Source: Acidobacteriota bacterium
GTDB lineage: Bacteria; Acidobacteriota; Vicinamibacteria; Vicinamibacterales; CAVVIG01
Direction: 5' to 3'
Length of the DNA: 64,000 bases
NCBI GenBank assembly: GCA_020850715.1
Contig: JADZED010000025.1
Coordinates: 1 to 64,000 of the forward strand
This document shows, one piece after another, positions 18,357-35,808 of the stretch (positions are counted from its first letter, which is position 1; the number at the start of each line of letters is the position of its first letter). A program made the translations under genes and the position numbers. The notes below the pieces were generated by a model. It was not told the origin of the DNA. It was given only the letters and a program-made list of their open reading frames with translations, and searched no databases.

Positions 18357-19427
18357 ATGCCCGATTTCACCGTCCGCTCCGACTCGGTCAACGTCGAGCA
18401 GATCATGGATCAGATCCGCGCGCGCATCCGCGACAAGCGCGGCGTCGACTACACCGAGCAGGAGATCCGCGAGTTGGCCGCGGTCCGGCTCGAGAGGTTC
18501 CTCGATCCGCGCGGCGTCCGATCCGATCTGCTCGAAGAATTCCGCCGATCGCAGCCGCCGCCCTCCCCCGGCGTGCCGCTCTACCCGTTCGAGGAGTCGA
18601 CACTCTTCGACTCGCATCGCGGCATCGTCCGCTTCTTCCGGCGGCTGTTCCAGCCGGTGCTGAAGCTGTTCTTCAACGCCAACGCGCTCGGCTCGTCCTT
18701 GCACGCGCAGACCGCGATCAACCGCCAGACGATCGAGCGGCTCGACGCCATGGACGCGACCTTCCGGCGCAACGGTGATCTCTACTACGAGCTGCTCCAC
18801 AACATGGTCGTCGAGCTCACCCGCATGAGCATCGAAGTGAAGAACGCCAAGATGCGGGTGGAGTCGATCGCCAGCCGCCTCGAGTTCAACGAGCGGCGCG
18901 CGCGCGCGCTGGAGAGCGTCGTCGTCTACAGGCCGGCGGAGGACGGGCGGGCGGCGACGCCGCCGCGGACGGCCGCGGCGGGCGCGCCGGTGCGGGCGCA
19001 AGGCGAACCGCAGGCGGCGCGTCCGTCTTCTCCGCCATCGCAGCCGGGAGGTGCGGCTCAGGCGCCGGCAGGCGGCCAGCCCGCCGAGGGACCCGGGCAG
19101 CGGAGCCGCCGGCGGCGCCGCCGGCGCGGCCGCCGCGGCGGCGCCAGCGCCGCCACGATCATGGGACAGCCGGGGGCGGAGGGCGGCGCGGACACGGATA
19201 CGTCTGGCGACGAAGCGGACGCGGGCACGGCCGCAGGCGATCCCGCACGCCCGCTCGGCGACGCGGCGCCTGCGGCTCGGGATGCAGCCGACGCGCGCGA
19301 CACGCGGCCGGAGCCCTTCGAGCACACGTTCGGGTCGGCCGCGCATCCAGCCGAATCGCCGGCTGCCGAACCGTCTGCCGCGGCTCCTTCCAGACCTGCG
19401 GTCGATCGCCCCGACAACGGCCAGTGA
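18357..19427 (+). CDS. Coiled-coil protein with basic, Pro/Ala-rich tail, upstream of glycosyltransferases
   Basis: A 356-aa protein that I cannot assign. Residues 1-60 (MPDFTVRSDSVNVEQIMDQI, RARIRDKRGVDYTEQEIREL) resemble the N-terminal helical segment that precedes methyltransferase domains in some polysaccharide-cluster proteins. Residues about 85-190 form amphipathic helices with coiled-coil character (AINRQTIERLDAMDATFRRN, MSIEVKNAKMRVESIASRLE). The last 165 residues are low-complexity Ala/Pro/Gly with a run [13 protein letters not shown]. It precedes the first glycosyltransferase by 55 bases in the same orientation, suggesting a role as a scaffold or regulator of that set. Confidence 0.75.
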   Translation: MPDFTVRSDSVNVEQIMDQIRARIRDKRGVDYTEQEIRELAAVRLERFLDPRGVRSDLLEEFRRSQPPPSPGVPLYPFEESTLFDSHRGIVRFFRRLFQPVLKLFFNANALGSSLHAQTAINRQTIERLDAMDATFRRNGDLYYELLHNMVVELTRMSIEVKNAKMRVESIASRLEFNERRARALESVVVYRPAEDGRAATPPRTAAAGAPVRAQGEPQAARPSSPPSQPGGAAQAPAGGQPAEGPGQRSRRRRRRRGRRGGASAATIMGQPGAEGGADTDTSGDEADAGTAAGDPARPLGDAAPAARDAADARDTRPEPFEHTFGSAAHPAESPAAEPSAAAPSRPAVDRPDNGQ

Positions 19428-19482
19428 TCGGCCGGCCAGCGATCGTGCGAGGATCTCACGACCGGCCGGCGCGGGTCGAGCG

Positions 19483-20763
19483 ATGAGGCTCGCAATCGTC
19501 GTCCAGCGATACGGGCTCGCCATCAACGGCGGCGCGGAACTGCACGCGCGATACATCGCGGAACGGCTCGCGCGTCACGCCGAGGTCGAGGTGCTGACGA
19601 CCTGCGCGGCGGACTACGTGACCTGGCGCAACCAGCTGCCCGAAGGGGTCGAGCAGGTCGGCGGCATTCCCGTCCGTCGATTCCGCGTGAAGCACGAGCG
19701 CGATCCGCAGGTCTTCGGCCGCCGGTCGGAGCGGGTGTTCCAGAGCCCCCACTCGATCGGCGAGGAGCTCGACTGGCTGGATGCGGAAGGGCCGACCAGT
19801 CCTGCGCTCATCGAACACCTGGAGCGGCACGCGCGGGAGTTCGACTACTGCCTCCTCTTCAGCTACCGCTACTACCATGCCTACTACGGCGCGCGCGCAG
19901 CCGGCACCCGCGGCATCCTCGTACCGACCGCCGAGCGGGACGAGGCCATCGGCCTGTCGATCTTCCAGCCGCTGTTTCGGGGCGTGCGGGCGCTGATGTA
20001 CAACTCGCCGGAAGAGCGCGCGATGATTCAGGCGGTGTCGGGCAATCAGGATCTGCCAAGCGTCGTGGTCGGCGTCGGGTCGGAGGTTCCCCGCACGGCG
20101 GAGCCGGACCGTTTCCGGCAGAAGTTCGACATCCGCGGCCCCTTCGCGGTGTACGTCGGCCGCGTCGATCGAAACAAGGGCTGCCCGGAGCTGTTCGACT
20201 TCTTCCGGGGCTACTTGAAGGACCCGGCCGGGCGGCTGTCGCTGGTGCTGGTCGGCAATTCGATCCTGCCGATTCCCGAGCACCCGCGCATCCGGCACCT
20301 CGGATTCCTTGACGATGCCGACAAGTTCGACGCGATGGCTGCGGCCGATCTCCTCGTGATGCCGTCGTTCTTCGAGAGCCTCTCGATGGTCGCGCTCGAA
20401 GCGTGGGCCCTGGGCCGGCCGGTCCTCGCCAATGGACGCTGCGACGTCCTGAAGGGGCAGTGCATCCGCAGCAACGCGGGGCTGTACTACGAGACCTACG
20501 AGGAGTTCCATCAGGCGCTGCGGGCGATCGAGCAGAACCGCTGGCTCGCGGAGACGCTCGGGCGCAACGGCCGCCAGTTCTTCCGCGAGCACTACGACTG
20601 GCCGGTCATCGAACGGAAGTATCTCGACATGTTCGCACAGCTCTCGCGCGATCCCGATCCGCGCGTCATCGATCCGCTCCCGGGCTGGCTCGATCGCCGG
20701 CGGCAGAACCTGCCGCCGGCGGAGGCCGTCGCCGCGCAACTGCCATCCGGGGCCTGCCGATGA
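19483..20763 (+). CDS. GT4-type glycosyltransferase, type A
   Basis: A 426-aa GT-B fold glycosyltransferase. The N-terminal Rossmann start LAIVVQRYGLAINGGAELH, the donor-side YVGRVDRNKGCPELFDFF and the EX7E motif ESLSMVALE are typical of GT4. The nucleotide sugar and acceptor are unknown. The frame is open upstream into the coiled-coil gene, but the conserved N-terminus starts at the ATG at 19483. Its stop overlaps the next gene (ATGA). It is paralogous to the fourth gene of the set (23008-24294). Confidence 0.9.
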   Translation: MRLAIVVQRYGLAINGGAELHARYIAERLARHAEVEVLTTCAADYVTWRNQLPEGVEQVGGIPVRRFRVKHERDPQVFGRRSERVFQSPHSIGEELDWLDAEGPTSPALIEHLERHAREFDYCLLFSYRYYHAYYGARAAGTRGILVPTAERDEAIGLSIFQPLFRGVRALMYNSPEERAMIQAVSGNQDLPSVVVGVGSEVPRTAEPDRFRQKFDIRGPFAVYVGRVDRNKGCPELFDFFRGYLKDPAGRLSLVLVGNSILPIPEHPRIRHLGFLDDADKFDAMAAADLLVMPSFFESLSMVALEAWALGRPVLANGRCDVLKGQCIRSNAGLYYETYEEFHQALRAIEQNRWLAETLGRNGRQFFREHYDWPVIERKYLDMFAQLSRDPDPRVIDPLPGWLDRRRQNLPPAEAVAAQLPSGACR

Positions 20764-21950
20764 ACACGGTCCATCAGGTGCTGGCCACGCTCGGCTACGG
20801 CGACGCCATCGGCCACGAGGTCCTCGGGATTCAGCGCGTCCTGCGAAACGCCGGCTACCTATCGGAGATCTTCGTCGAGACCGCGGATCGCCGGCTCGAG
20901 GCGCTGACCCGCGACTACCGCGAGTTGGTCGACGCGAGCCACCCCGACCATCTGCTGCTGCACCACTTCTCCCTCGGGTCGCGCGCGTCGAGGACCGCGT
21001 TCGCGCTGCCCGACCGGATGGCGCTCATCTACCACAACATCACGCCCGCGGAATACTTCGTCGGCGTGCACCGGACGCTGGCGCGGCAGTGCTTCCGGGG
21101 GCGGCGCGAGCTTCAGGCCTACGCCGGCCGATGCGATCTGGCGCTCGGCGACTCGGAGTTCAACCGGCAGGATCTCGAGCAGCTCGGGTTCCCGCGCACC
21201 GGCGTCCTCCCGGTAGTGCCCGACTTCTCCCACCTGGACGGGCGCGCCAACCGGCTGCTCGCGTCGGAGTTCGACGACGACTGGACGAACATCCTGTTTG
21301 TCGGCCGGGTCATCGCAAACAAGAAGATCGAGGATCTGATCCGCTTCTTCCACGTCTACCAGACGAAGTTCAATCCACGCTCCCGGCTGCTGATCGTCGG
21401 CGCCCACAGCGGATTCGAGCGCTATCTCGCCTCGCTGCACCACCTCGTCGCGTCCAGGGACGTCGGCCACGTGCACTTCGTCGGACACGTGTCGGACGAG
21501 GAGCTGGTCGCCTTCTACGAGATCGCCGATCTGTTCCTGTGCGCCAGCGAACACGAGGGCTTCTGCGTGCCGCTGGTGGAGGCCTTCCACATGGAGGTGC
21601 CGGTGCTCGCCTATGCGGCGGCCGCCGTGCCCGCGACGATGGATGGTGCGGGCGTCCTGTATACGGAGAAGGATCCGCTGCACGTGGCCCTGCTGATGGA
21701 CACGATGCTGTCGGACCGTGCGCTCCAGGACGCGATCGTCGAGGCCCAACGTGCGGCGGTCGCGCGCCTGCGGGCGAAGGACTTCGCCGGCACGCTGCTG
21801 GGGCTCGTCCGCCGGATCCTCGCCGCCCCGCGCGCCCCGCGGGCACGGGTGGCGTTCGACTTCTGGCAGCAGTTCGATGCCGCGCAGGAGCTGGAGGAGC
21901 TGCGCCTCTACCGGCCGGCGATCTTCAAAGCGCTCCCCGAGCCGCGATGA
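20760..21950 (+). CDS. GT4-type glycosyltransferase, type B
   Basis: A 396-aa glycosyltransferase. The N-terminal half differs from type A and has the hallmark VLATLGYGDAIGHEVLGIQR, LLLHHFSLGSRASR and IYHNITPAEYF. The C-terminal half has LFVGRVIANKKIEDLI and the EX7E motif EGFCVPLVE. It overlaps the genes on both sides by ATGA, so all four are translationally coupled. It is closely related to the next gene. Substrates are not predictable from sequence. Confidence 0.9.
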   Translation: MNTVHQVLATLGYGDAIGHEVLGIQRVLRNAGYLSEIFVETADRRLEALTRDYRELVDASHPDHLLLHHFSLGSRASRTAFALPDRMALIYHNITPAEYFVGVHRTLARQCFRGRRELQAYAGRCDLALGDSEFNRQDLEQLGFPRTGVLPVVPDFSHLDGRANRLLASEFDDDWTNILFVGRVIANKKIEDLIRFFHVYQTKFNPRSRLLIVGAHSGFERYLASLHHLVASRDVGHVHFVGHVSDEELVAFYEIADLFLCASEHEGFCVPLVEAFHMEVPVLAYAAAAVPATMDGAGVLYTEKDPLHVALLMDTMLSDRALQDAIVEAQRAAVARLRAKDFAGTLLGLVRRILAAPRAPRARVAFDFWQQFDAAQELEELRLYRPAIFKALPEPR

Positions 21951-23011
21951 TCGTCAACCAGTGGGTGCCGGCGGCGCACCGCGGCGATGCGATCGGCGAC
22001 AGCGCGCGCCGCGTGCGCGGCCTCCTGCGCGAGATGGGCCACCTCTCGGAGATCTACGCGCTCACCATCGACGATGATCTCCGGGACGACGTGCGGCCGT
22101 TCGGCGATCCGGCCGCCGCGCGCGGCGACCTCACGATCTTCCATTACGCGCTGCCGTCGCCGATGACCGCCGCGTTCGCCGCGCTCCCGCGCGGGCGGAT
22201 CCTCCAGTACCACAACGTGACCCCGGCGGCGTTCTTCGCCCTCTACGATCCCGCCCTCTTCCGACTGGCCTCGCTGGGCCGCCAGGAGCTCGGCACGCTG
22301 GTCGGGCGCGTCGACCTGGCGCTGGGCGATTCGGCGTACAACCGCGCCGAGCTGGATGCGCTCGGGTTCGAGCCGACCGGCGTGTTCCCGATCGCCGTCG
22401 ACACCTCCCGCATCACTGCCCCGGTCTCGCGCCCCGCGCTCGACGAGATCCTGGACGACGGCCTCGTGAACTTCCTGTTCGTGGGGCGGATCGCGCCGAA
22501 CAAGCGGATCGAGGACCACATACGGCTGGCGGAGGTCTACAAGCGCTACGTCGACGCCTACTACCGCTTCATCTTCGTCGGGCGCCACGACGTGGTGCCG
22601 AAGTATCATGCGATGATTCGCGCGCTCATGTCCGAGTACCGCCTGCTCGACGACCGGTTCATCTTCACGGGACACGTCTCCGACGAGGAGCTCGCCGTCT
22701 ACTACCGGCACGCCGCAGTCTATGTGTCGCTCAGCGAGCACGAAGGGTTCTGCGTGCCGCTGGTCGAAGCCATGGCGGCCGACGTGCCGATTCTCGCCTA
22801 CGGCGCGGCCGCCGTGCCCGACACGCTGGGAGGCGCCGGCGTGCAGTTCGCACCGAAGGATCTCGAGATCGCCGCGGAGCTCCTCGGCACGCTCGCCTTC
22901 GACGACGCGGTCCGGGCGGACGTGATTGCCGGCCAGCGCCGGCGGCTCGCGGCGTTCGGCGACGACCGCATCCGGACCGAGCTCTCGGCCCTCCTCCGGC
23001 AGATCTCGTGA
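21947..23011 (+). CDS. GT4-type glycosyltransferase, type B'
   Basis: A 354-aa paralogue of the preceding gene. Matching blocks are NQWVPAAHRGDAIGDSARR, ILQYHNVTPAAFF, LFVGRIAPNKRIEDHI, FTGHVSDEELAVYYRHA and the EX7E motif EGFCVPLVE. It is about 40 residues shorter, mainly at the C-terminus. The start overlaps the previous stop (ATGA) and its stop overlaps the next GTG. Confidence 0.9.
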   Translation: MIVNQWVPAAHRGDAIGDSARRVRGLLREMGHLSEIYALTIDDDLRDDVRPFGDPAAARGDLTIFHYALPSPMTAAFAALPRGRILQYHNVTPAAFFALYDPALFRLASLGRQELGTLVGRVDLALGDSAYNRAELDALGFEPTGVFPIAVDTSRITAPVSRPALDEILDDGLVNFLFVGRIAPNKRIEDHIRLAEVYKRYVDAYYRFIFVGRHDVVPKYHAMIRALMSEYRLLDDRFIFTGHVSDEELAVYYRHAAVYVSLSEHEGFCVPLVEAMAADVPILAYGAAAVPDTLGGAGVQFAPKDLEIAAELLGTLAFDDAVRADVIAGQRRRLAAFGDDRIRTELSALLRQIS

Positions 23012-24294
23012 AGCTCGCGTTCATCGTCCAGCGCTACGGCACCGAGGTCCTCGGCGGTTCGGAGCACCTGTGCCGCCTGATCGCCGAACGGCTGGCGGCG
23101 CAGCACGATGTCGACGTCCTGACGACGTGCGCCCGCGACTACGTGAGCTGGACGAACGAGCTGCCCGAAGGGGCCGACCGGATTCGCGGGGTCACCGTCC
23201 GGCGCTTTCCGAACGCGCGGACCCGCGACATCCAGGCCTTCGACCGGCTGTCCGAGTGGATCTTCCGCTCGCCGCACACGCATCGTGACGAGATGGAGTG
23301 GCTCGAGCAGCAGGGTCCCTGGTGCCCCGCGCTCATCGACTATCTCGGGCGCCACCACCAGCAGTACGACGTCCTGATCTTCTTCACCTATCTGTACGCG
23401 CCCACGGTGCTCGGCCTCGAGGTGGCGCCCTCGCGCAGCGTGCTGGTGAGCACGGCGCACGACGAACCGGCGATCCAGCTCGACCTCTTCCGGCGGGTGT
23501 TCAGCCGCCCGGCGGCGATCTGCTATCTGACCCACAGCGAGCGCAGCTTCGTCCAGCAGCGCTTTGAGGAGCGTCCGCCGATCGAGGAGGTCACCGGCGC
23601 CGGCATCGACTTCCCGCAGCAGCAGCCGTATCCGAGGATGCCCGCGCCCGACGGGGACGATGCGGTGGAGGACGGCGTCCAGGCGGGGGACGCCGGCGAC
23701 GCACCGGCGTGGCGCGAGCAGCCCGGCCATCTGACGGCGCGCGGCGCGGTGTTCCGGCGGCGCCATCGGCTGTACGGCCCCATCGCGCTCTACGGTGGCC
23801 GGATCGATCCGGGGAAGGGCTGCGAGGAGCTGATCGAGTACTTCAGCGCCTACGTGAAGGAGGGAGGCGACGCCACGCTTGCGCTGATGGGCGTCAAGAT
23901 GATGGCGCTGCCCGAGGAGCCGTTCATCCGGTTCGCCGGGCTGCTGTCGGACCGCGAACGCCTGCAGGCGCTCGAAGCGGCCACGGTCGTCATCGTCCCC
24001 TCGCCCTACGAGAGCCTGTCGCTGCTGGCGCTCGAGGCGCTCTCGGTGGGCACGCCCGTGCTCGTCAACGCGCGCAGCGCCGTGCTGGTCGAGCACTGCG
24101 TGCGCAGCGATGGCGGCCTGTACTACGCCGATCGCGACGAGTTCGTGGAGTGCCTGACGCTGCTGGTCGCCGACGAGCGCCTGCGGCGCGCGCTCGGCCG
24201 GAACGGCCGCGAGTACATCCGGCGTCATTACCGCTGGGACGTCGTGCTCGCGAAGTACGAGCGGATCTTCTCGAAGGTCCGCGCCGGGCGGTAG
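23008..24294 (+). CDS. GT4-type glycosyltransferase, type A'
   Basis: A 428-aa paralogue of the first glycosyltransferase, with LAFIVQRYGTEVLGGSEHLC, VLTTCARDYVSWTNELPEGA, ALYGGRIDPGKGCEELIEYF and the EX7E motif ESLSLLALE. It carries an extra charged insert (about residues 205-255) relative to the first gene. The GTG start overlaps the previous stop (GTGA). It ends 3 bases before the convergent response-regulator gene. Confidence 0.9.
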   Translation: MKLAFIVQRYGTEVLGGSEHLCRLIAERLAAQHDVDVLTTCARDYVSWTNELPEGADRIRGVTVRRFPNARTRDIQAFDRLSEWIFRSPHTHRDEMEWLEQQGPWCPALIDYLGRHHQQYDVLIFFTYLYAPTVLGLEVAPSRSVLVSTAHDEPAIQLDLFRRVFSRPAAICYLTHSERSFVQQRFEERPPIEEVTGAGIDFPQQQPYPRMPAPDGDDAVEDGVQAGDAGDAPAWREQPGHLTARGAVFRRRHRLYGPIALYGGRIDPGKGCEELIEYFSAYVKEGGDATLALMGVKMMALPEEPFIRFAGLLSDRERLQALEAATVVIVPSPYESLSLLALEALSVGTPVLVNARSAVLVEHCVRSDGGLYYADRDEFVECLTLLVADERLRRALGRNGREYIRRHYRWDVVLAKYERIFSKVRAGR

Positions 24295-24297
24295 GGC

Positions 24298-25782
24298 CTA
24301 CTTGTCGTCGAAGGCAGCCGGCGTGAGCGGGCCCGCGATGCCGGCCGGCTGACGCCGATCCGCGCCGGCCGCGCTGCCGCCCGACGGGCGCTTCCGGCGC
24401 GGCCGGATCTCGTAGCGCTTGATCATCTCGTTCAGCGTGGTCGGCTTGATGTGCAGGAGCTCGGCGGCCCGCTTCTGCACGCCGCCGGCGGCTTCGAGCG
24501 TCGACTCGATGAGCCGCTTCTCGAAGTCGGTGATCACGTCCCGGAAGGAGATCCCTTCCGGCGGCACGACGAAGGACGGCACCTGGAAGTCCGGCGCCTT
24601 GCGCACGTGATCGGGAATCAGGTCGGCGCCGATGGCGGGACCCGGCGTCAGCACGACGGCGCGCTCGATCACGTTCTCGAGCTCGCGGACGTTGCCGGGC
24701 CAGTCGTAGTCGGTCAGCAGGTCGAGCGCGTCGGGCGCCAGCTCGAGGCCGCGCTTGCGGTTCTCGTCGCCGTACTTCGAGAGAAAGTGCTGCGCGAGCA
24801 GCGGGATATCGTCCTTCCGATCCCGCAGCGGCGGCAGCTGGATCGAGATCACGTGCAGGCGATAGAAGAGATCCTCGCGGAAGCTTCCCTCCTCCATCAT
24901 CTGGCGCAGGTCGACGTTGGTCGCCGCGATGATGCGGACGTCGACCTTGATCGTCTCCATGCCGCCCAGGCGCATGAAGTCGCGCTCCTGGATCACCCGC
25001 AGCAGCTTGGCCTGCGTCTCCAGCGGCACGTTGCCGATCTCGTCGAAGAAGATGCTGCCCTTGTCGGCCAGATCGAACATCCCCTTCTTCGGGTAGACCG
25101 CGCCGGTGAAGGCGCCCTTCACGTGCCCGAACAGCGTCGACTCGAGCAGATCGGGCGGCAGGTTGCCGGAGTTGACCGTCACGAACGATCGCTCGGACCG
25201 CGAGGAGTTCGCGTGAATCGCGCGCGCGACGAGCTCCTTGCCCGTGCCGCTCTCGCCCTGGATGAGGATCGTCGAGCGGCTCGGCGCCGCCTGGATGATC
25301 AGGTCGAAGACCTGGCGCATCTTGGGGCTGCGCCCGATGATGTTGGCGAACTTGTGGTAGCGCTCCTGGATGCTCTGCCGGAGGCTGCGGTTCTCGGTGA
25401 GGAGGCGCCGCCGCTCCATGGCGTTGCGGACGACGACGAGGACCTCGTCGTTCTTGAACGGCTTGGTGACGTAGTCGAACGCCCCGGTCTTCATGGCGGC
25501 GATCGCGCTCTCGACCGACGCGAAGGCGGTGAGGATGATGACGTTCAGGTCTTCGTCGATCCGCTTCAGCTCGTCGAGCGTCGCGATGCCGTCCAGCCCG
25601 GGCATCATGATGTCGACAATCGCGGCGTCGAACGGGAGCGCCCGCGCCAGCTCGAGCCCTTCCGCGCCGGAGGAAGCGAGCCGCACGTCGTAGCCCTCGC
25701 GCGTCAGCAGGGTCTCGAGGATCTCCCGCATGATCTCCTCGTCGTCGATGACGAGAATCGCGCCGCTTCGGGATGCTGCCAT
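24298..25782 (-). CDS. Sigma-54-dependent response regulator, NtrC family
   Basis: A 494-aa NtrC-type regulator. Domains: receiver with phosphoacceptor Asp57 (IVDIMMPG) and Lys107; AAA+ with Walker A GESGTGKE at 176-183, the sigma-54 contact loop GAFTGA at 223-228 and FFDEIGNVP; and a C-terminal Fis-type helix-turn-helix (LLHIKPTTLNEMIKRYEI). The basic tail after it is unusual. It follows the histidine kinase gene by 11 bases and is its likely partner. Target promoters with -24/-12 elements were not identified here. Confidence 0.95.
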   Translation of the reverse strand: MAASRSGAILVIDDEEIMREILETLLTREGYDVRLASSGAEGLELARALPFDAAIVDIMMPGLDGIATLDELKRIDEDLNVIILTAFASVESAIAAMKTGAFDYVTKPFKNDEVLVVVRNAMERRRLLTENRSLRQSIQERYHKFANIIGRSPKMRQVFDLIIQAAPSRSTILIQGESGTGKELVARAIHANSSRSERSFVTVNSGNLPPDLLESTLFGHVKGAFTGAVYPKKGMFDLADKGSIFFDEIGNVPLETQAKLLRVIQERDFMRLGGMETIKVDVRIIAATNVDLRQMMEEGSFREDLFYRLHVISIQLPPLRDRKDDIPLLAQHFLSKYGDENRKRGLELAPDALDLLTDYDWPGNVRELENVIERAVVLTPGPAIGADLIPDHVRKAPDFQVPSFVVPPEGISFRDVITDFEKRLIESTLEAAGGVQKRAAELLHIKPTTLNEMIKRYEIRPRRKRPSGGSAAGADRRQPAGIAGPLTPAAFDDK

Positions 25783-25793
25783 GCCGCGGCCGC

Positions 25794-28724
25794 CTACTGC
25801 GCCGCCCGCGACGGGCGCCCGGCCGCCTGCGCCTGCGGGAAGGTCAGCGTGAAGGTCGTGCCCTGCCCGACGGCGGAATCGCACTGGACGACGCCGTCGT
25901 GCTCGCGCACGATGCCGTAGGCGATCGACAGGCCAAGGCCGGTGCCGCGGCCGATCGGCTTGGTGGTGAAGAACGGATCGTAGATGCGCGACAGCTGATC
26001 GGGGGGGATGCCCGAGCCGGTGTCGGCGATTTCGGCGACGGCCGCCGCCTGATCGGCCCGCGTCGCCACCGTCAGCCATCCGCCGACCGGCATCGCATCG
26101 CGGGCGTTCAGGAACAGGTTGAGGAACACCTGCTGGAGCTGGTGCTCGATGCCGAGCACGAACACCGGTCCGGCCGACAGCTCGCGCCGCACCCTGATCT
26201 TGCCGGCGGCGAACTGGTGCTCGAGCAGCGAGAAGACGTCGGTCACGACCGCGTTCAGGTCGACCAGCGCGCGCCCGTGGTTCGACGAGCCCGGGCGCGA
26301 GAGATTCAGCAGCCCGCTCACGATCTTGGCCGCCCGGAACGTCTGGCGCTCGATCTTCTCGAGGAGGGCCGTCCGGGGATCGCCCGGCTCAGCCCCTTCG
26401 AGCAGCATCTGCGTGTAGCTCGAGATTCCGGTCAGCGGCGTGTTCACCTCATGGGCGACGCCCGCCGCCAGCAGGCCGATCGACGCCATCTTCTCCGAGA
26501 TCTGCAGCTGCTCCTCCAGGCGGACGCGGCCCGTGATGTCCTCGAGCAGCAGGATCGTGCCGGCCACGGCGCCCGCCTCCTCCGACGCCTGCAGCGGCGC
26601 CTCGGTGGCGTTCACGAGCAGCGCCGCGTCCTCGGCGGTGGCGGCGGGCCGCCGGCTCGCGAGCGGAACCCGATAGAGCGTGGCGCCGCCGGGATGTGCC
26701 TCGCGTGCGGCGCGGAGGGCCTCGACGACCGGTTCGTCGAAGACGTCCGCCAGCTGCCGCCCGACCGCGTCGGCGCGCGCCACGCCGTAGAGCTCCTCGA
26801 GCGCGCGGTTCCAGCGGACGATCCGCTCGGCCTCGTCGAAGACGACCAGGCCGTTGTCGAGCGATTCGAGGATGTTGTCGTTGAACTCGCGCATGCGGCC
26901 GAGCTCGTCGGCCTTGAGGCGCAGCTGCCGGTACAACCGGCCGTTCTCGATCGCCGTCGCGACCTGGCCTGCGACGGCAGTCAGCAGCGCGAGGTCCTCG
27001 CTGTTGAACGGCTCGGCATTGTCCTTGCGGCCCAGCGCCAGCACCGCGATCGCGCTGCCTTCGAACACGCACGGGATCAGATAGTAGATGCCGGCGTCGC
27101 GCCAGAACTCGACCTCCTCGGCGAGGAACCGGGCGCCGGCCAGCGGGTCGTCGAGCGCGACGGTGTGCCCGGCGTGCAGGCGCGGCGCCAGCGACGAGGC
27201 GTGCGACAGCCGCGGCCGCGCGCCGGAGAAGCCGTAGTCGCCGATGGCCGCGAAATCGCCCGTGCGCTCGTCGACGAGCATCAGTGCGAGCCGGTCGAGC
27301 ACCAGCGTCTCGACGATGCGCGTGACGAGACGCTGGCTGAGCCGCTCGACGTCGAGGTCGCTGTTCAGATCGCGCGCGAAGGCCACCAGCGCCCGCCGAT
27401 AGTCGTAGCGATCGCGGTAGAAGAGACGATCGAGCGCATTCTGCAGCGCCTCCTTCACCGGCTGCGCGAGCAGCACCACGACGGAGGTGGCCAGCAGGGC
27501 GACGATCCAGTTGCGGTCGTCGCCGATCGGAAACAGATGGCCGGCCAGCCTCAGCATTGCAACGTAGAACACCGCCGCCGCGCCGAAGAACGCCGTGTAC
27601 GCGAGCCCGCGCTTGACAATGACTTCCACGTCGCGGAGCCGGTAGCGCACGATCGCCGACGCGAAGGTGAGCGGCACCAGGCCCAGCGGGATCGCCGTGA
27701 GCTGCAGCGTGACCGGCGGGTCGATGCCGAGCGCCCACGGCAGCGCATAGCCGGCCGCGAACGGGCCGGCGCCGAGGGCGGTGCCCCAGGCGATCCAGCG
27801 CAACTGGCGGCGCCCGGTGAGCGAGGCGATCTGGCCGCAGGCGCGCCCGAGCACGACCACGGCCGCGGCCGCACACACGCCCAGATACAGGTGCTCGCCG
27901 CGGTTCAGGATCTCGATGGCGCGCGAGAACAGCGGACCGTCGGACGCGCCGCGCGCGACGGCGAACACGCGCCCGGCGCCGAGCGCGGCCGCCGGCGCGT
28001 ACATCGCGGCCAGCGCCGGCAAGCCGACCGAGAAGGGCCTCTGAGGCGGCGCCTGGGCGTCGCGGGCCGGGAACACCAGCGTGAAGTGCAGCAGCAGCGG
28101 CGGCAGCAGCGCCCAGGCAATCGTGTCGCCCCAGTAGAAGATCCAGTCGAGCCGGTCGAAGGCGCCGTTGAACGAGAAGGTGAAGACGCCGAAGAACGCG
28201 ACGCAGAGCCAGAAGAAGTGCAGCGTGGCCTGATCCTTCGGCCGCCGCAGGCGGACCGACGCGCCGACCAGCAGCGTGAAGAGGCCGACCGCGGCGAGCA
28301 CGAAGTACATCGAGCTGCCGCCGGGCGCGGTGGCGAGCGCGACCTGAAACGCGCGCTGCGCGTCGAGGCGCAGGATCGAATAGGTCAGCAGCGTGCCCCC
28401 GGCCGCGCGGTACTGGTACTGGACCACATCGGCCGGCGTCCGCACCGGGGCGCCATTGACCGCGATCAGGAGGTCGCCTTTCGCCAGGCCGGCGCGCGAG
28501 GCCGGCGAACCGGCCGCGACTTCGACCGCCGTCACCCCTTCGCCGCGGGCGCCCCACAGCACGCCGTCCTCGACCTCGTTCCGGTGCCCCCACGACGCGA
28601 TGTTCGTCACGCCGAGCCCCAGGAGCACGACGACCACCGCCAGGGCGAACGCCGAGCGTCCCCACGCGAGCCAGTCGCGGGCCGAGACGGGAGCAGCGAT
28701 GAACGGCGATGCGAGGTCGGCCAT
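25794..28724 (-). CDS. Membrane histidine kinase with PDZ, GAF and PAS domains
   Basis: A 976-aa sensor kinase. After a first membrane segment (AFALAVVVVLLGLGV) comes a PDZ-like domain (about 60-125; GSPASRAGLAKGDLLIAVNG), then seven or so membrane segments (about 140-405), a GAF domain (about 440-605), a PAS domain (about 615-735), and HisKA/HATPase. The H-box is His758 in HEVNTPLTG; the N-box is NLFLNARDAM near 873, with DTGSGIPPDQL and GTGLGLSIAYGIV. The PDZ suggests sensing of envelope protein termini. The gene sits between a TonB-like barrel gene and the sigma-54 regulator. Confidence 0.93.
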   Translation of the reverse strand: MADLASPFIAAPVSARDWLAWGRSAFALAVVVVLLGLGVTNIASWGHRNEVEDGVLWGARGEGVTAVEVAAGSPASRAGLAKGDLLIAVNGAPVRTPADVVQYQYRAAGGTLLTYSILRLDAQRAFQVALATAPGGSSMYFVLAAVGLFTLLVGASVRLRRPKDQATLHFFWLCVAFFGVFTFSFNGAFDRLDWIFYWGDTIAWALLPPLLLHFTLVFPARDAQAPPQRPFSVGLPALAAMYAPAAALGAGRVFAVARGASDGPLFSRAIEILNRGEHLYLGVCAAAAVVVLGRACGQIASLTGRRQLRWIAWGTALGAGPFAAGYALPWALGIDPPVTLQLTAIPLGLVPLTFASAIVRYRLRDVEVIVKRGLAYTAFFGAAAVFYVAMLRLAGHLFPIGDDRNWIVALLATSVVVLLAQPVKEALQNALDRLFYRDRYDYRRALVAFARDLNSDLDVERLSQRLVTRIVETLVLDRLALMLVDERTGDFAAIGDYGFSGARPRLSHASSLAPRLHAGHTVALDDPLAGARFLAEEVEFWRDAGIYYLIPCVFEGSAIAVLALGRKDNAEPFNSEDLALLTAVAGQVATAIENGRLYRQLRLKADELGRMREFNDNILESLDNGLVVFDEAERIVRWNRALEELYGVARADAVGRQLADVFDEPVVEALRAAREAHPGGATLYRVPLASRRPAATAEDAALLVNATEAPLQASEEAGAVAGTILLLEDITGRVRLEEQLQISEKMASIGLLAAGVAHEVNTPLTGISSYTQMLLEGAEPGDPRTALLEKIERQTFRAAKIVSGLLNLSRPGSSNHGRALVDLNAVVTDVFSLLEHQFAAGKIRVRRELSAGPVFVLGIEHQLQQVFLNLFLNARDAMPVGGWLTVATRADQAAAVAEIADTGSGIPPDQLSRIYDPFFTTKPIGRGTGLGLSIAYGIVREHDGVVQCDSAVGQGTTFTLTFPQAQAAGRPSRAAQ

Positions 28725-28742
28725 TGATCCCGGATGCGATCG

Positions 28743-30656
28743 CTAGAAGTGCAGCGTGAGCCCGCCGACGATCCGCTTCGGCGGCCGCACCACGAGCAGT
28801 TCGTCGTAGACCGACTGGTCGTCCGCCATCTCGCGGAAGAAGTTCCTGACCGCCACGAGCATCTCCCACCTGGCGGAGCTGAAGTCCATGAACGGCAGCG
28901 ACTGCCGTACCTGCACGTCGAACCGCGTGTCGAACCTGCGCTCGCCGGCCGCGGCGTCGGCCGGCGCGTGCGCGAACCCGTTGCTCACGCGGTACAGCAG
29001 CAGCACCCTGGTCGAGGTCTCCGGCACGTCGGCTTCGATCGCCGTGGAGATCCGATGGATGCGCGTCGCCTCGGCCGGCACCGAGGGCTCGACCACGATC
29101 AGGTACGAGAGGTCGGCCTCCGGCGTCCACCGGGCGCGGATCTGCGCGTACTCGACAGAGGCATGAACGCGGCCGGCCAGCTCGGTACGCAGGCCGGTGG
29201 CCCACCCGACCGCGTCCGCAGATCCGTCGGCGCCCACGAAGTAGTGCCCGAGCGACGACACCGGCCGCCCGGGAACGGCCGCGCCGAAAACCGTCACGAG
29301 CTGCCCGGCGACCTGCTGGGCGAAGGCGCGCACCACGAAGGTCGAGCGGCCGAGGTCGCGCTCGACCTCCGCCTGCGCATGGGTCGTGCGTTCCGATCTG
29401 AGCGGCCCGCCGAGCAGCGGCGAGAACGTCCGCTGCGTGGGCTGCCACAGGCCCTCGCCGGCGGGGGGCACGAACTCCTCGGCCCCCGGGGCGGTGGCGC
29501 GCCGCGATACCAGCGTGTTGATCCGCAGCGCCCGGGCAGGCGTCCACGCCACCGCGAACCGCGGGCTCAGGACGTTGCGGTTCGTGAGGTAGTCGTAGCG
29601 GCCGTAACGCGCGCCGTAGGTCAGCGCGAGCGCCGGAGAGAGGGCGACCGTCTCGAACGCATAGAGGACGCCGGCATTGCGGCCGCCGTCGACCTCGTGG
29701 AAAGCGCCGGGGTTGCCGGCGTTGTACCGTTGCGCGCTGTACGACAGCCCGATCTCGCGGAGCCGGCGCGCCGGCGCGCGCGTCGCATAGGCGCCGGCGA
29801 CGATCCATGACGAGACGTCGCCCTGCGTGAGCGCGCCCCGCACGCTCCAGTCGGCCTGCCCGCCCGCAGGCGCGCCGACCGAGACATCGGCGATGCTGCG
29901 CGCGAAGCTGTCGAGCGTGAACAGCTGAGCCGGCGTCTCGAACGATCCGGCCGTGAGGAGATTGAACTGGCCGGAAAACGGCATGTCAGCGAAGAAGCTC
30001 GTCGCGCGCCGCACAGGCGTGGCAATCAGCCGCGCCGCGGACCCGAGGTCGGATGGGCCACCGTCGGCGAGCACGGCCTCCGGCATCGAGACCTCCTGCA
30101 GCACGCCGCGGCGGGCGTGCCGCAGCCGCCAGGCCATCTCGTCGCGGTCGCCGTCTGGCCGCGGCGATGAGGCGTCCGGGGCCGGAGCCGGCGCCGCCGC
30201 GCCGGCCTCCGTGTCGCCCTCAGCCGCGTGCGGAATCTGCAGGCCCAGGCCCGCCTCGAGGATCGGATGCGCCATGGGCGTGCGGTTCAGCGCGATGGTC
30301 GAACTGGCCCGCACACCGGCGGCGACTTCGACGATCTCGCCGCGTCCGGCGGCAAAGCCGCTGCGGTGCGCCCGCAGCACGTACACGCCCGGTTCGAGCG
30401 CGGCCAGCACGAAGCGGCCGTCCCGGCCGGTGAGCGCAAAAGCGGCGGAGGCGCCGACCGCCGACACCATCACGCCTGGCAGCGGCGCGCCCCGTCCATC
30501 CCGCACGATGCCGTCAATCGACCCCGACGGCGCGACGGCGGGCGCCGCCGCGGCCGTCCCGGCCGTCCGCGCCTGCGCGCCGGCAGGGATCGCCCAGAGC
30601 AGACCCAGACAGCCGAACAACGCCGCCGCGACGACCGATTTCGTGGTGTCGTGCAT
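28743..30656 (-). CDS. TonB-dependent receptor-like outer-membrane barrel with carboxypeptidase regulatory-like domain
   Basis: A 637-aa exported protein with a Sec signal (SVVAAALFGCLGLLWAIPAG...AQA). Residues about 45-115 form a carboxypeptidase-regulatory-like beta domain (GIVRDGRGAPLPGVMVSAVG, GRFVLAALEPGVYVLRA). The rest has alternating aromatic/polar strands that look like a beta barrel (ALTYGARYGRYDYLTNRNVL). I cannot see a normal plug domain, and the protein is shorter than most TonB receptors. The ATG at 30656 is preceded by GGGGA; an ATG at 30692 directly after the upstream TAG lacks a ribosome site. Confidence 0.8.
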   Translation of the reverse strand: MHDTTKSVVAAALFGCLGLLWAIPAGAQARTAGTAAAAPAVAPSGSIDGIVRDGRGAPLPGVMVSAVGASAAFALTGRDGRFVLAALEPGVYVLRAHRSGFAAGRGEIVEVAAGVRASSTIALNRTPMAHPILEAGLGLQIPHAAEGDTEAGAAAPAPAPDASSPRPDGDRDEMAWRLRHARRGVLQEVSMPEAVLADGGPSDLGSAARLIATPVRRATSFFADMPFSGQFNLLTAGSFETPAQLFTLDSFARSIADVSVGAPAGGQADWSVRGALTQGDVSSWIVAGAYATRAPARRLREIGLSYSAQRYNAGNPGAFHEVDGGRNAGVLYAFETVALSPALALTYGARYGRYDYLTNRNVLSPRFAVAWTPARALRINTLVSRRATAPGAEEFVPPAGEGLWQPTQRTFSPLLGGPLRSERTTHAQAEVERDLGRSTFVVRAFAQQVAGQLVTVFGAAVPGRPVSSLGHYFVGADGSADAVGWATGLRTELAGRVHASVEYAQIRARWTPEADLSYLIVVEPSVPAEATRIHRISTAIEADVPETSTRVLLLYRVSNGFAHAPADAAAGERRFDTRFDVQVRQSLPFMDFSSARWEMLVAVRNFFREMADDQSVYDELLVVRPPKRIVGGLTLHF

Positions 30657-30692
30657 ATGCCCGTTCCCCGGCGTCTGCCGTGAAGTCCGCAT

Positions 30693-31706
30693 CTACGACG
30701 GGCCGACGCGGAAGCTCAGGTCGCGCGTCAGCGCCTTGTTCGCGATCCTGTCGGTCACCTTGATCTCCAGCCGGTAGTTCCCCTCGGGAAAGCTCGAGAG
30801 CTTCACGGCCTGACCCGTCTGAAGCTGGTGCCCGGCGGCGAAGCTGAACGTCGATTCCATCGTCCCGGCTTTCAGGTTCAGCGGCGGCGTCCGGTTGAAG
30901 AAGGTCTCAGGCCCGGCCGGATCCTTCCTGAAGAAGCTGAATTCCACGACCACGTCCGGCAGTTGCGCGGCATCGGTGGCCGCGTTGTAGATCTGCATGA
31001 AGGTGGACAGTTCGGAGCCGCGGGTGAAGGTGCTGCGGTACGACGGCACGATCTCGATGCTGCCGAGCGCGTACGGATGATCGGCCTTCTGCTCCCTCGA
31101 CAGCGGCGCCGTCACCGCCTCGATCCGATCCACGACGATGAGCGAGCTCGTGCTCAGCGCGTCGTTCCAGAAGTCGGGGACGACCACTTCGCGCGCGAGC
31201 ACGGCGGTCTTCGGCGCCGGCGTGCGGCGCGCGGCGGCGGCTTCCCGGGCCAGCACGTACACGTCGTAGGTCCCCGCCGGCACGGTGAACGAACGGCTGA
31301 TCGGCACCGGCGCGTCGCCGGTCACGACGGCCGACGAGAGGTCCTCGTAGGGGAAGGATCCCTTCCGCGCGCGCCCGGCCGCCTGGCCGGAGGCCCCGCC
31401 GCCCCGGGCCACGACGCGCCAGTACAACGTGACGGCGCCGCCCGGCACTTTCGTCGGGTCTACCGTGACCGTGAACGGCACGTAACTCTGCCGGTCCTGC
31501 GCCTTCAGATAGTCTTCGCGCAGCCACGCCAGGCCAAGCTCGTTTGGCGTCTCGTGTCCACCGGCGACCCGGTCGACCAGCGACAGCATCGCTTTCAGTT
31601 CCCGGGTGCGCGCCTCGCCGTCCTGCCCGGCGCCCTGCGCGCGCAGGCCGGCACCGGCCGCCAGCAGGGCGATCAGGCAGACGAGGGTGCGGCGAAGGGG
31701 TGTCAC
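30693..31706 (-). CDS. Secreted protein of unknown function
   Basis: A 337-aa protein with a Sec signal (RRTLVCLIALLAAGAGLRAQ). The mature part is beta-rich with no catalytic motif that I recognise. Its C-terminal half (YALGSIEIVPSYRSTFTRGS, LSTFMQIYNAATD, FPEGNYRLEIKVTDR) resembles the C-terminal domain of acidobacterial VWA and GWxTD-type proteins, where it looks like an extracellular beta-sandwich. It heads the group with the barrel, kinase and regulator genes and has a good promoter upstream. Confidence 0.8.
   Translation of the reverse strand: MTPLRRTLVCLIALLAAGAGLRAQGAGQDGEARTRELKAMLSLVDRVAGGHETPNELGLAWLREDYLKAQDRQSYVPFTVTVDPTKVPGGAVTLYWRVVARGGGASGQAAGRARKGSFPYEDLSSAVVTGDAPVPISRSFTVPAGTYDVYVLAREAAAARRTPAPKTAVLAREVVVPDFWNDALSTSSLIVVDRIEAVTAPLSREQKADHPYALGSIEIVPSYRSTFTRGSELSTFMQIYNAATDAAQLPDVVVEFSFFRKDPAGPETFFNRTPPLNLKAGTMESTFSFAAGHQLQTGQAVKLSSFPEGNYRLEIKVTDRIANKALTRDLSFRVGPS

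Positions 31707-32478: not shown

Positions 32479-35808
<3,330 letters not shown>

Follow-up and report, generated by a model that had tools for sequence, protein, structure and literature searches.

Directly upstream of a PDZ-bearing sensor kinase, Acidobacteriota genomes usually encode either an outer-membrane barrel protein or, in its place, a very small protein. The element retained is a short tryptophan (Trp) motif, because the small proteins end in the motif that barrel proteins carry internally; the barrel is dispensable. This suggests that the short motif stretch, not the end of the barrel, is what the kinase reads. Our leading interpretation, which we hold at about even strength, is that a receptor kinase of ComP architecture works with an NtrC-type regulator, and that its cognate element is the Trp motif supplied by the upstream gene. 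More tentatively, the genes may represent an Acidobacteriota-wide peptide-receptor pair. A ComP-like PDZ kinase would then read a Trp peptide on a tiny anchored protein or at the base of a pore, a pheromone-type receptor having turned into a sensor of outer-membrane channels.

A tight row of four genes

The window is the whole stretch of DNA analysed, 64,000 nucleotides in length. Four minus-strand genes form a tight row in it, running from 31706 to 24298. In order, they encode a secreted protein, the barrel protein, the PDZ kinase and a sigma-54-type response regulator. The gaps are 36 nt (secreted protein to barrel), 18 nt (barrel to kinase) and 11 nt (kinase to regulator). The first is counted from the conserved barrel ATG at 30656; a longer barrel frame begins at 30692. 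Positions 25794-30656 cover the kinase together with the barrel, counted from that conserved ATG; the regulator and secreted protein also belong to the row. The original prediction put a barrel and a secreted protein directly upstream of a PDZ kinase. This was confirmed from the frames and Pfam (kinase, 28724-25794; barrel, 30656-28743; secreted protein, 31706-30693). The flanks at 19051-24294 (glycosyltransferases) and 32479-35808 for the most part keep their arrangement relative to the kinase row throughout the order. The latter holds ADP-glucose pyrophosphorylase-like, enolase and phosphoglycerate mutase genes, these three names being given by eye from sequence.

The secreted protein (30693-31706, minus strand) has a signal peptide, judged by eye, and matches no Pfam family over the cut-off. 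A longer relative (L268:3944-5611) has a GWxTD domain on its N-terminal side, which may hint at the family. The secreted protein was not found in the L135-L137, L144 and L152-L154 loci. These belong to family f10 of the order, which lacks it here; barrel and kinase are kept, and so is the regulator wherever the contig extends far enough. The secreted protein was also considered as a required partner of the Trp motif. This was rejected, because many loci that retain both motif and kinase showed no such protein.

The barrel protein (28743-30656, minus strand) has Pfam matches to CarboxypepD_reg and to part of the TonB_dep_Rec barrel. In its AlphaFold model (mean pLDDT 75.4) a CarboxypepD_reg-like periplasmic domain (residues 57-137 of the 649-residue frame; 30282-30524, minus strand) is followed by a disordered linker and then by the barrel (residues 240-649; 28746-29975, minus strand), which ends in GLTLHF. 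The best conserved part of the linker is the 12-residue Trp motif WRLRHARRGVLQ, found from alignments (residues 188-199; 30096-30131, minus strand). A low-confidence helix is modelled at residues 182-192, just before and into the motif. The modelled barrel has about 18 strands. With TonB-dependent receptors it shares the Pfam TonB barrel part; unlike those 22-strand plugged proteins, it has no plug in the model and no plug family match by Pfam. The best solved-structure matches of the barrel model are OpdQ (Z 17.8) and AlgE (Z 17.6). It is like the OprD/AlgE pores in its barrel and unlike them in having the CarboxypepD domain and Trp motif in front.

The kinase (25794-28724, minus strand) is built of helix 1, a PDZ domain, helices 2-10, and GAF, PAS, HisKA and HATPase_c domains. 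Pfam assigns the PDZ domain to PDZ_6/PDZ_2 and finds no protease domain in the kinase, such as the trypsin-like domain of a DegS-type sensor. Ten membrane helices are consistent with the peaks of the hydropathy plot and with AlphaFold modelling of residues 15-455 (mean pLDDT 80.9); the model contains the first helix, the PDZ domain and about nine further helices. One helix, around residues 308-330, gives a weak hydropathy signal, and helix borders were set by hand. Helices 1 and 2 are connected by the PDZ loop (residues 45-137). The next loop, VRLRRPKD, which follows helix 2, has four K/R in eight residues and is cytoplasmic by the positive-inside rule. Thus, the PDZ domain (residues 46-135; 28320-28589, minus strand; PDZ_6 9e-11) faces the periplasm, in/out labels being assigned by alternation. 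Loop charge and alternation therefore agree with the earlier placement of the PDZ domain outside the cytoplasm. Both ends of the kinase are cytoplasmic in this arrangement of about ten helices, which fits the modelled helices and the hydropathy with loop charges.

In a profile search of the PDB, the PDZ domain matched DegP (5e-19), DegS (2e-09) and also RseP-type PDZ domains. Structural comparison of its model gave Z of about 13 to HtrA and CtpB PDZ domains. In the same genome, 32 other whole-kinase matches all start at residue 423 or later. No other listed protein there matches the full sensor part, and one weaker second N-terminal match was counted. The modelled helices of residues 138-424 resemble seven-helix/GPCR-like receptors (Z 13-15). 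This likeness was set aside, since helical bundles can be expected to give values of roughly this size, as the tool itself cautions.

The regulator (24298-25782, minus strand) has, by Pfam, a receiver, a sigma-54 AAA+ activation domain and a Fis-type HTH; GAFTGA was read in the translation. A script placed it directly downstream of the kinase in 68 of 77 loci. For six of the nine misses the regulator is visible on reading, with an over-long frame. Among the 77 loci checked, L276-L278 have no regulator beside the kinase. In these three, where barrel and kinase are kept, the partner of the kinase may be encoded elsewhere. The proposal that the system uses sigma-54 stands only at the level of the regulator. 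The activation domain and the presence of rpoN in the genome favour it, but no -24/-12 promoter was found before the operon. When upstream regions were scored with the -24/-12 consensus, the best site reached p<0.05 in 1 of 38, with p=0.61 at this locus. A genome scan for TGGCACN5TTGC gave 8 sites and 2 for the reversed control (1 and 0 for a stricter form); these are counts of sites, from which no regulon is claimed.

Linkage in the order and the phylum

In 100 related genomes, the kinase N-terminus was matched in 99, the barrel in 95 and the secreted protein in 89, a few of the weakest matches being only PDZ- or CarboxypepD-sized. A profile of the kinase N-terminus found a match in 198 of 199 genomes drawn from the phylum. 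Roughly three quarters of these, by reading of the table, have E values under 1e-40; those with the poorest scores may be other PDZ proteins. In 57 of 61 order loci (our own included) the kinase is directly preceded by the barrel, and in the other 4 by a small protein, hereafter a mini. The 80 phylum loci, picked from the stronger matches of the profile listing, have a barrel (54), a mini (8) or neither (18; two of these are contig ends, which leaves 16 with upstream DNA). In all, 111 of 141 loci have the barrel directly upstream, meaning a frame that ends within 520 nt of the extrapolated kinase start, with two more taken by eye. The linkage expected of relatives was thus recovered. It is old and far beyond chance.

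The 16 phylum loci with neither barrel nor mini called upstream include all nine f23 loci fetched. Among the matches listed, thirteen f23 genomes, one f72 genome and one f48 genome have only CarboxypepD-sized matches to the barrel profile, and none of these families is among the 29 genomes with a match to the mini profile. At loci of this type the kinase must rely on another element or on a gene far from it. A joint loss of PDZ domain and motif protein was considered and rejected; f23 keeps the PDZ domain without barrel or mini upstream. Families f22 and f33, in which the match begins at columns 78-80, had been taken as PDZ-less. This was wrong, since a PDZ domain with an insertion is present and barrels lie upstream.

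Order loci are largely collinear: glycosyltransferases flank the row on one side, and on the other lies enolase, accompanied in most loci by sugar-nucleotide genes. The barrel could be an exporter or porin, the row controlling a polysaccharide or envelope programme together with the adjacent glycosyltransferases, and the motif a minor structural element. The likeness of the barrel model to AlgE and OprD-type pores fits such a role, as do the family-4-type glycosyltransferases and sugar-nucleotide genes that flank the row across the order. However, in the phylum loci inspected the row has other genes at its sides, while barrel or mini and kinase stay together, and the barrel can be absent when the motif cannot. 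We regard this explanation as very unlikely.

The Trp motif in barrel and mini proteins

Mini proteins replace the barrel directly before the kinase, on the same strand, in 31 loci, 4 in the order and 27 elsewhere. All 31 stop exactly 11 residues after the Trp (W-x-x-R-x4-x-[IV]-L-x-stop). Barrel proteins carry this element internally, in the stretch that joins the periplasmic domain to the barrel. Its general form, W-x-[ILV]-R-x(3-5)-[RK]-x-[IV]-[LF]-x, is short and basic. In 34 sequences W188 and L198 are invariant, and R189, R191, H192 and R195 are present at 90% or more.

The order minis come from four genomes of one family, in which the barrel is absent here and the mini sits between secreted protein and kinase. 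A barrel search of these genomes gave no match in three and a single weak match in the fourth (G066, E 4e-5). The proteins are 102-125 residues long, look secreted and end in ELAW(W/R)LRHxRRSVL(R/K). Between two genera the tail is identical at 13 of 17 positions and the body at 31 of 85. In other families of the phylum this position is taken by a different small protein, with ends such as WAIRSGERHILN. A profile of eight phylum minis found a match in 29 of 396 genomes: 27 minis, of which 8 had been seen before the search, and two barrel proteins. The 27 fall in five further families, making six with that of the order, so the independent number is below 31. Mini frames are 85-134 residues long, with the exception of L381 (an open frame of 579), and their signal or anchor segments were judged by eye. 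The bodies of the order minis are unlike those of the others; the end point is the same.

The two barrel proteins align with much of the 87-position mini profile, L390 over positions 24-87 (E 1.8e-13) and L391 over positions 6-87 (E 2.9e-5), before continuing into the barrel. Hence, the mini and the N-terminus of the barrel protein look homologous. A gapless matrix was also built from 56 order motifs, order minis included where they fitted. Seven phylum minis were scored with it; in all 7 the top-scoring site coincided with the C-terminus to the residue, and 6 of them reached p<0.05 in comparison with shuffled sequences. Of 50 phylum barrels, only 20 gave a motif hit at p<0.05 with this matrix; longer-spaced variants can be made out by eye in most of the remaining 30.

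The most conserved part of the PDZ domain is the DGVLW loop (28554-28568, minus strand). Its D, G and W are kept in 100, 111 and 107, respectively, of the 111 barrel loci. The DGVxW form is kept in 12 of 12 mini loci and in 15 of 18 loci with neither gene, so the conservation of the loop is independent of the motif gene. DGVLW stands at the start of the PDZ domain, where, judging from the model, the peptide-end loop of HtrA-type PDZ domains would be expected to lie. Profile matches to HtrA-type domains begin after it, and a DegS-type loop is not recognisable by sequence.

These counts bear on the suggestion that the PDZ domain reads the barrel C-terminus, as in DegS. The suggestion is not supported: 31 loci keep the kinase with a mini replacing the barrel, and f41 barrels carry a residue after the terminal F. 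In a broader form, the kinase would be a DegS-like envelope-stress sensor whose PDZ domain binds the exposed C-terminal F of misfolded outer-membrane proteins, the neighbouring barrel being one client. Loss of one barrel would then leave the sensing of other barrels possible. Consistent with this, the PDZ domain is HtrA/DegS-like in sequence and model, and F ends 102 of 109 scored barrels (55 of 55 in the order, 47 of 54 in the phylum). Such conservation is not specific, because a C-terminal F is general for outer-membrane proteins and GLTLHF is a normal outer-membrane terminus. Moreover, all five barrels found in f41 extend one residue past the F; the other two exceptions (L327 and L333) look like broken or gap-containing frames. 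The persistence of PDZ domain and DGVxW loop in 12 of 12 mini loci, and the lack of a recognisable DegS-type loop, also count against a DegS-like sensor, which we consider distinctly unlikely.

Type II secretion genes are a further neighbour. Of 8 phylum mini loci, 6 (L262, L269, L270, L282, L295 and L304) have GspF/GspE next to the mini-kinase row, and GspF and/or GspE occur at 16 of the 27 minis with 1.5-kb flanks. They were found beside the row in none of the barrel loci searched. The motif might thus serve another partner, be it a barrel plug, the assembly machinery or a secretion apparatus, of which type II secretion could be the real one. The kinase would sense otherwise, via its membrane helices, and the gene order would reflect co-regulation. 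The position of the motif in the model, where a plug would be, is in line with this, as are the kinases of f23 and others that have no motif gene. Conversely, the register of motif and stop is fixed in loci with and without adjacent secretion genes, and no neighbour other than the kinase both faces the periplasm and is shared by barrels and minis. On balance, another partner is rather unlikely.

A kinase that may read the motif, and its known counterparts

We return to the kinase as the proposed reader of the Trp motif. The motif is common to both versions of the upstream gene, and the kinase is their one shared periplasm-facing neighbour; we infer that the motif is the kinase's cognate element. 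The upstream gene would supply it in one of two forms, either within a barrel protein, on the periplasmic linker that leads into a plug-less, roughly 18-stranded pore, or, in lineages without the barrel here, at the extreme C-terminal end of a tiny protein that is anchored or secreted. The motif would dock on the PDZ domain, or the outer face of the kinase, and so set the balance of kinase and phosphatase, whether by activation or by inhibition. The anatomy, the linkage and the constant register of motif and stop codon are observed; the kinase as partner, its PDZ domain as docking site, the direction of the effect and the regulon are inferred. In the barrel form, the state or assembly of the pore may expose or hide the motif, and the kinase would report on the outer membrane. 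With the motif at the pore mouth, it could report pore occupancy, assembly or damage. The mini form would present the motif without a barrel. Mean net charge is +4.2 over 67 motifs and -4.1 over 137 PDZ domains, a match in charge drawn without a control set. The last residue of the motif is N, D, R, K, H or Y, which counts against this reading, as PDZ ligands usually end in a hydrophobic residue. Also against it are the loci that have the kinase but neither gene upstream, most of which keep the PDZ loop, the 30 phylum barrels that fall short with the gapless matrix, and the secretion genes beside many minis.

The mini loci amount to a natural deletion series, which reduces the stretch of interest in an outer-membrane protein of 650 residues to about 12. 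The signal of the kinase, and peptide binding by ComP-type PDZ sensors generally, become directly testable with one synthetic peptide.

Several known systems share parts of this arrangement. In NtrC-family pairs such as AtoS/AtoC and ZraS/ZraR, the likeness is in the regulator and catalytic core, which score well. The present pair falls below the curated cut-off of every NCBIfam model listed, and its sensor part is unrelated. DegS and AlgW are alike in having an HtrA-type PDZ domain that faces the periplasm beside an outer-membrane protein. Unlike them, our protein is a kinase and not a protease, the neighbouring F-ending barrel is dispensable and the loop is DGVxW.

In Bacillus, comX lies before comP, and the ComX ligand carries a Trp near its C-terminus. 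ComP has its own kinase core and is paired with ComA. The present row is like ComQXPA in that a candidate ligand gene adjoins the kinase gene and the candidate ligand has a Trp near its C-terminus. It differs in its Gram-negative envelope and in a candidate ligand that is anchored or built into an outer-membrane barrel. No ComQ-type prenyl transferase was found among the few neighbours scanned with Pfam. A search of plasmids for ComP-like relatives gave PDZ-sized matches only, and no ComP structure was among the matches listed in the structure searches. The likeness to ComP described here is one of architecture.

The receptor type itself is already known; searches of open-access literature gave no paper that names a ligand for ComP-type PDZ kinases of Acidobacteria. 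A 2019 survey counts such kinases in Acidobacteria, with 8 proteins in 6 organisms (PMC6411480). For ComP of B. amyloliquefaciens, a 2022 modelling paper describes ten helices, places a PDZ domain in the first outer loop and proposes ComX as the ligand of this domain (PMC9620489). The present kinase is alike in its ten-helix sensor, with the PDZ domain in the first outer loop and a cytoplasmic kinase part. It is unlike ComP in joining that sensor to GAF, PAS and HisKA domains and a sigma-54 regulator, rather than to the ComP core and ComA.
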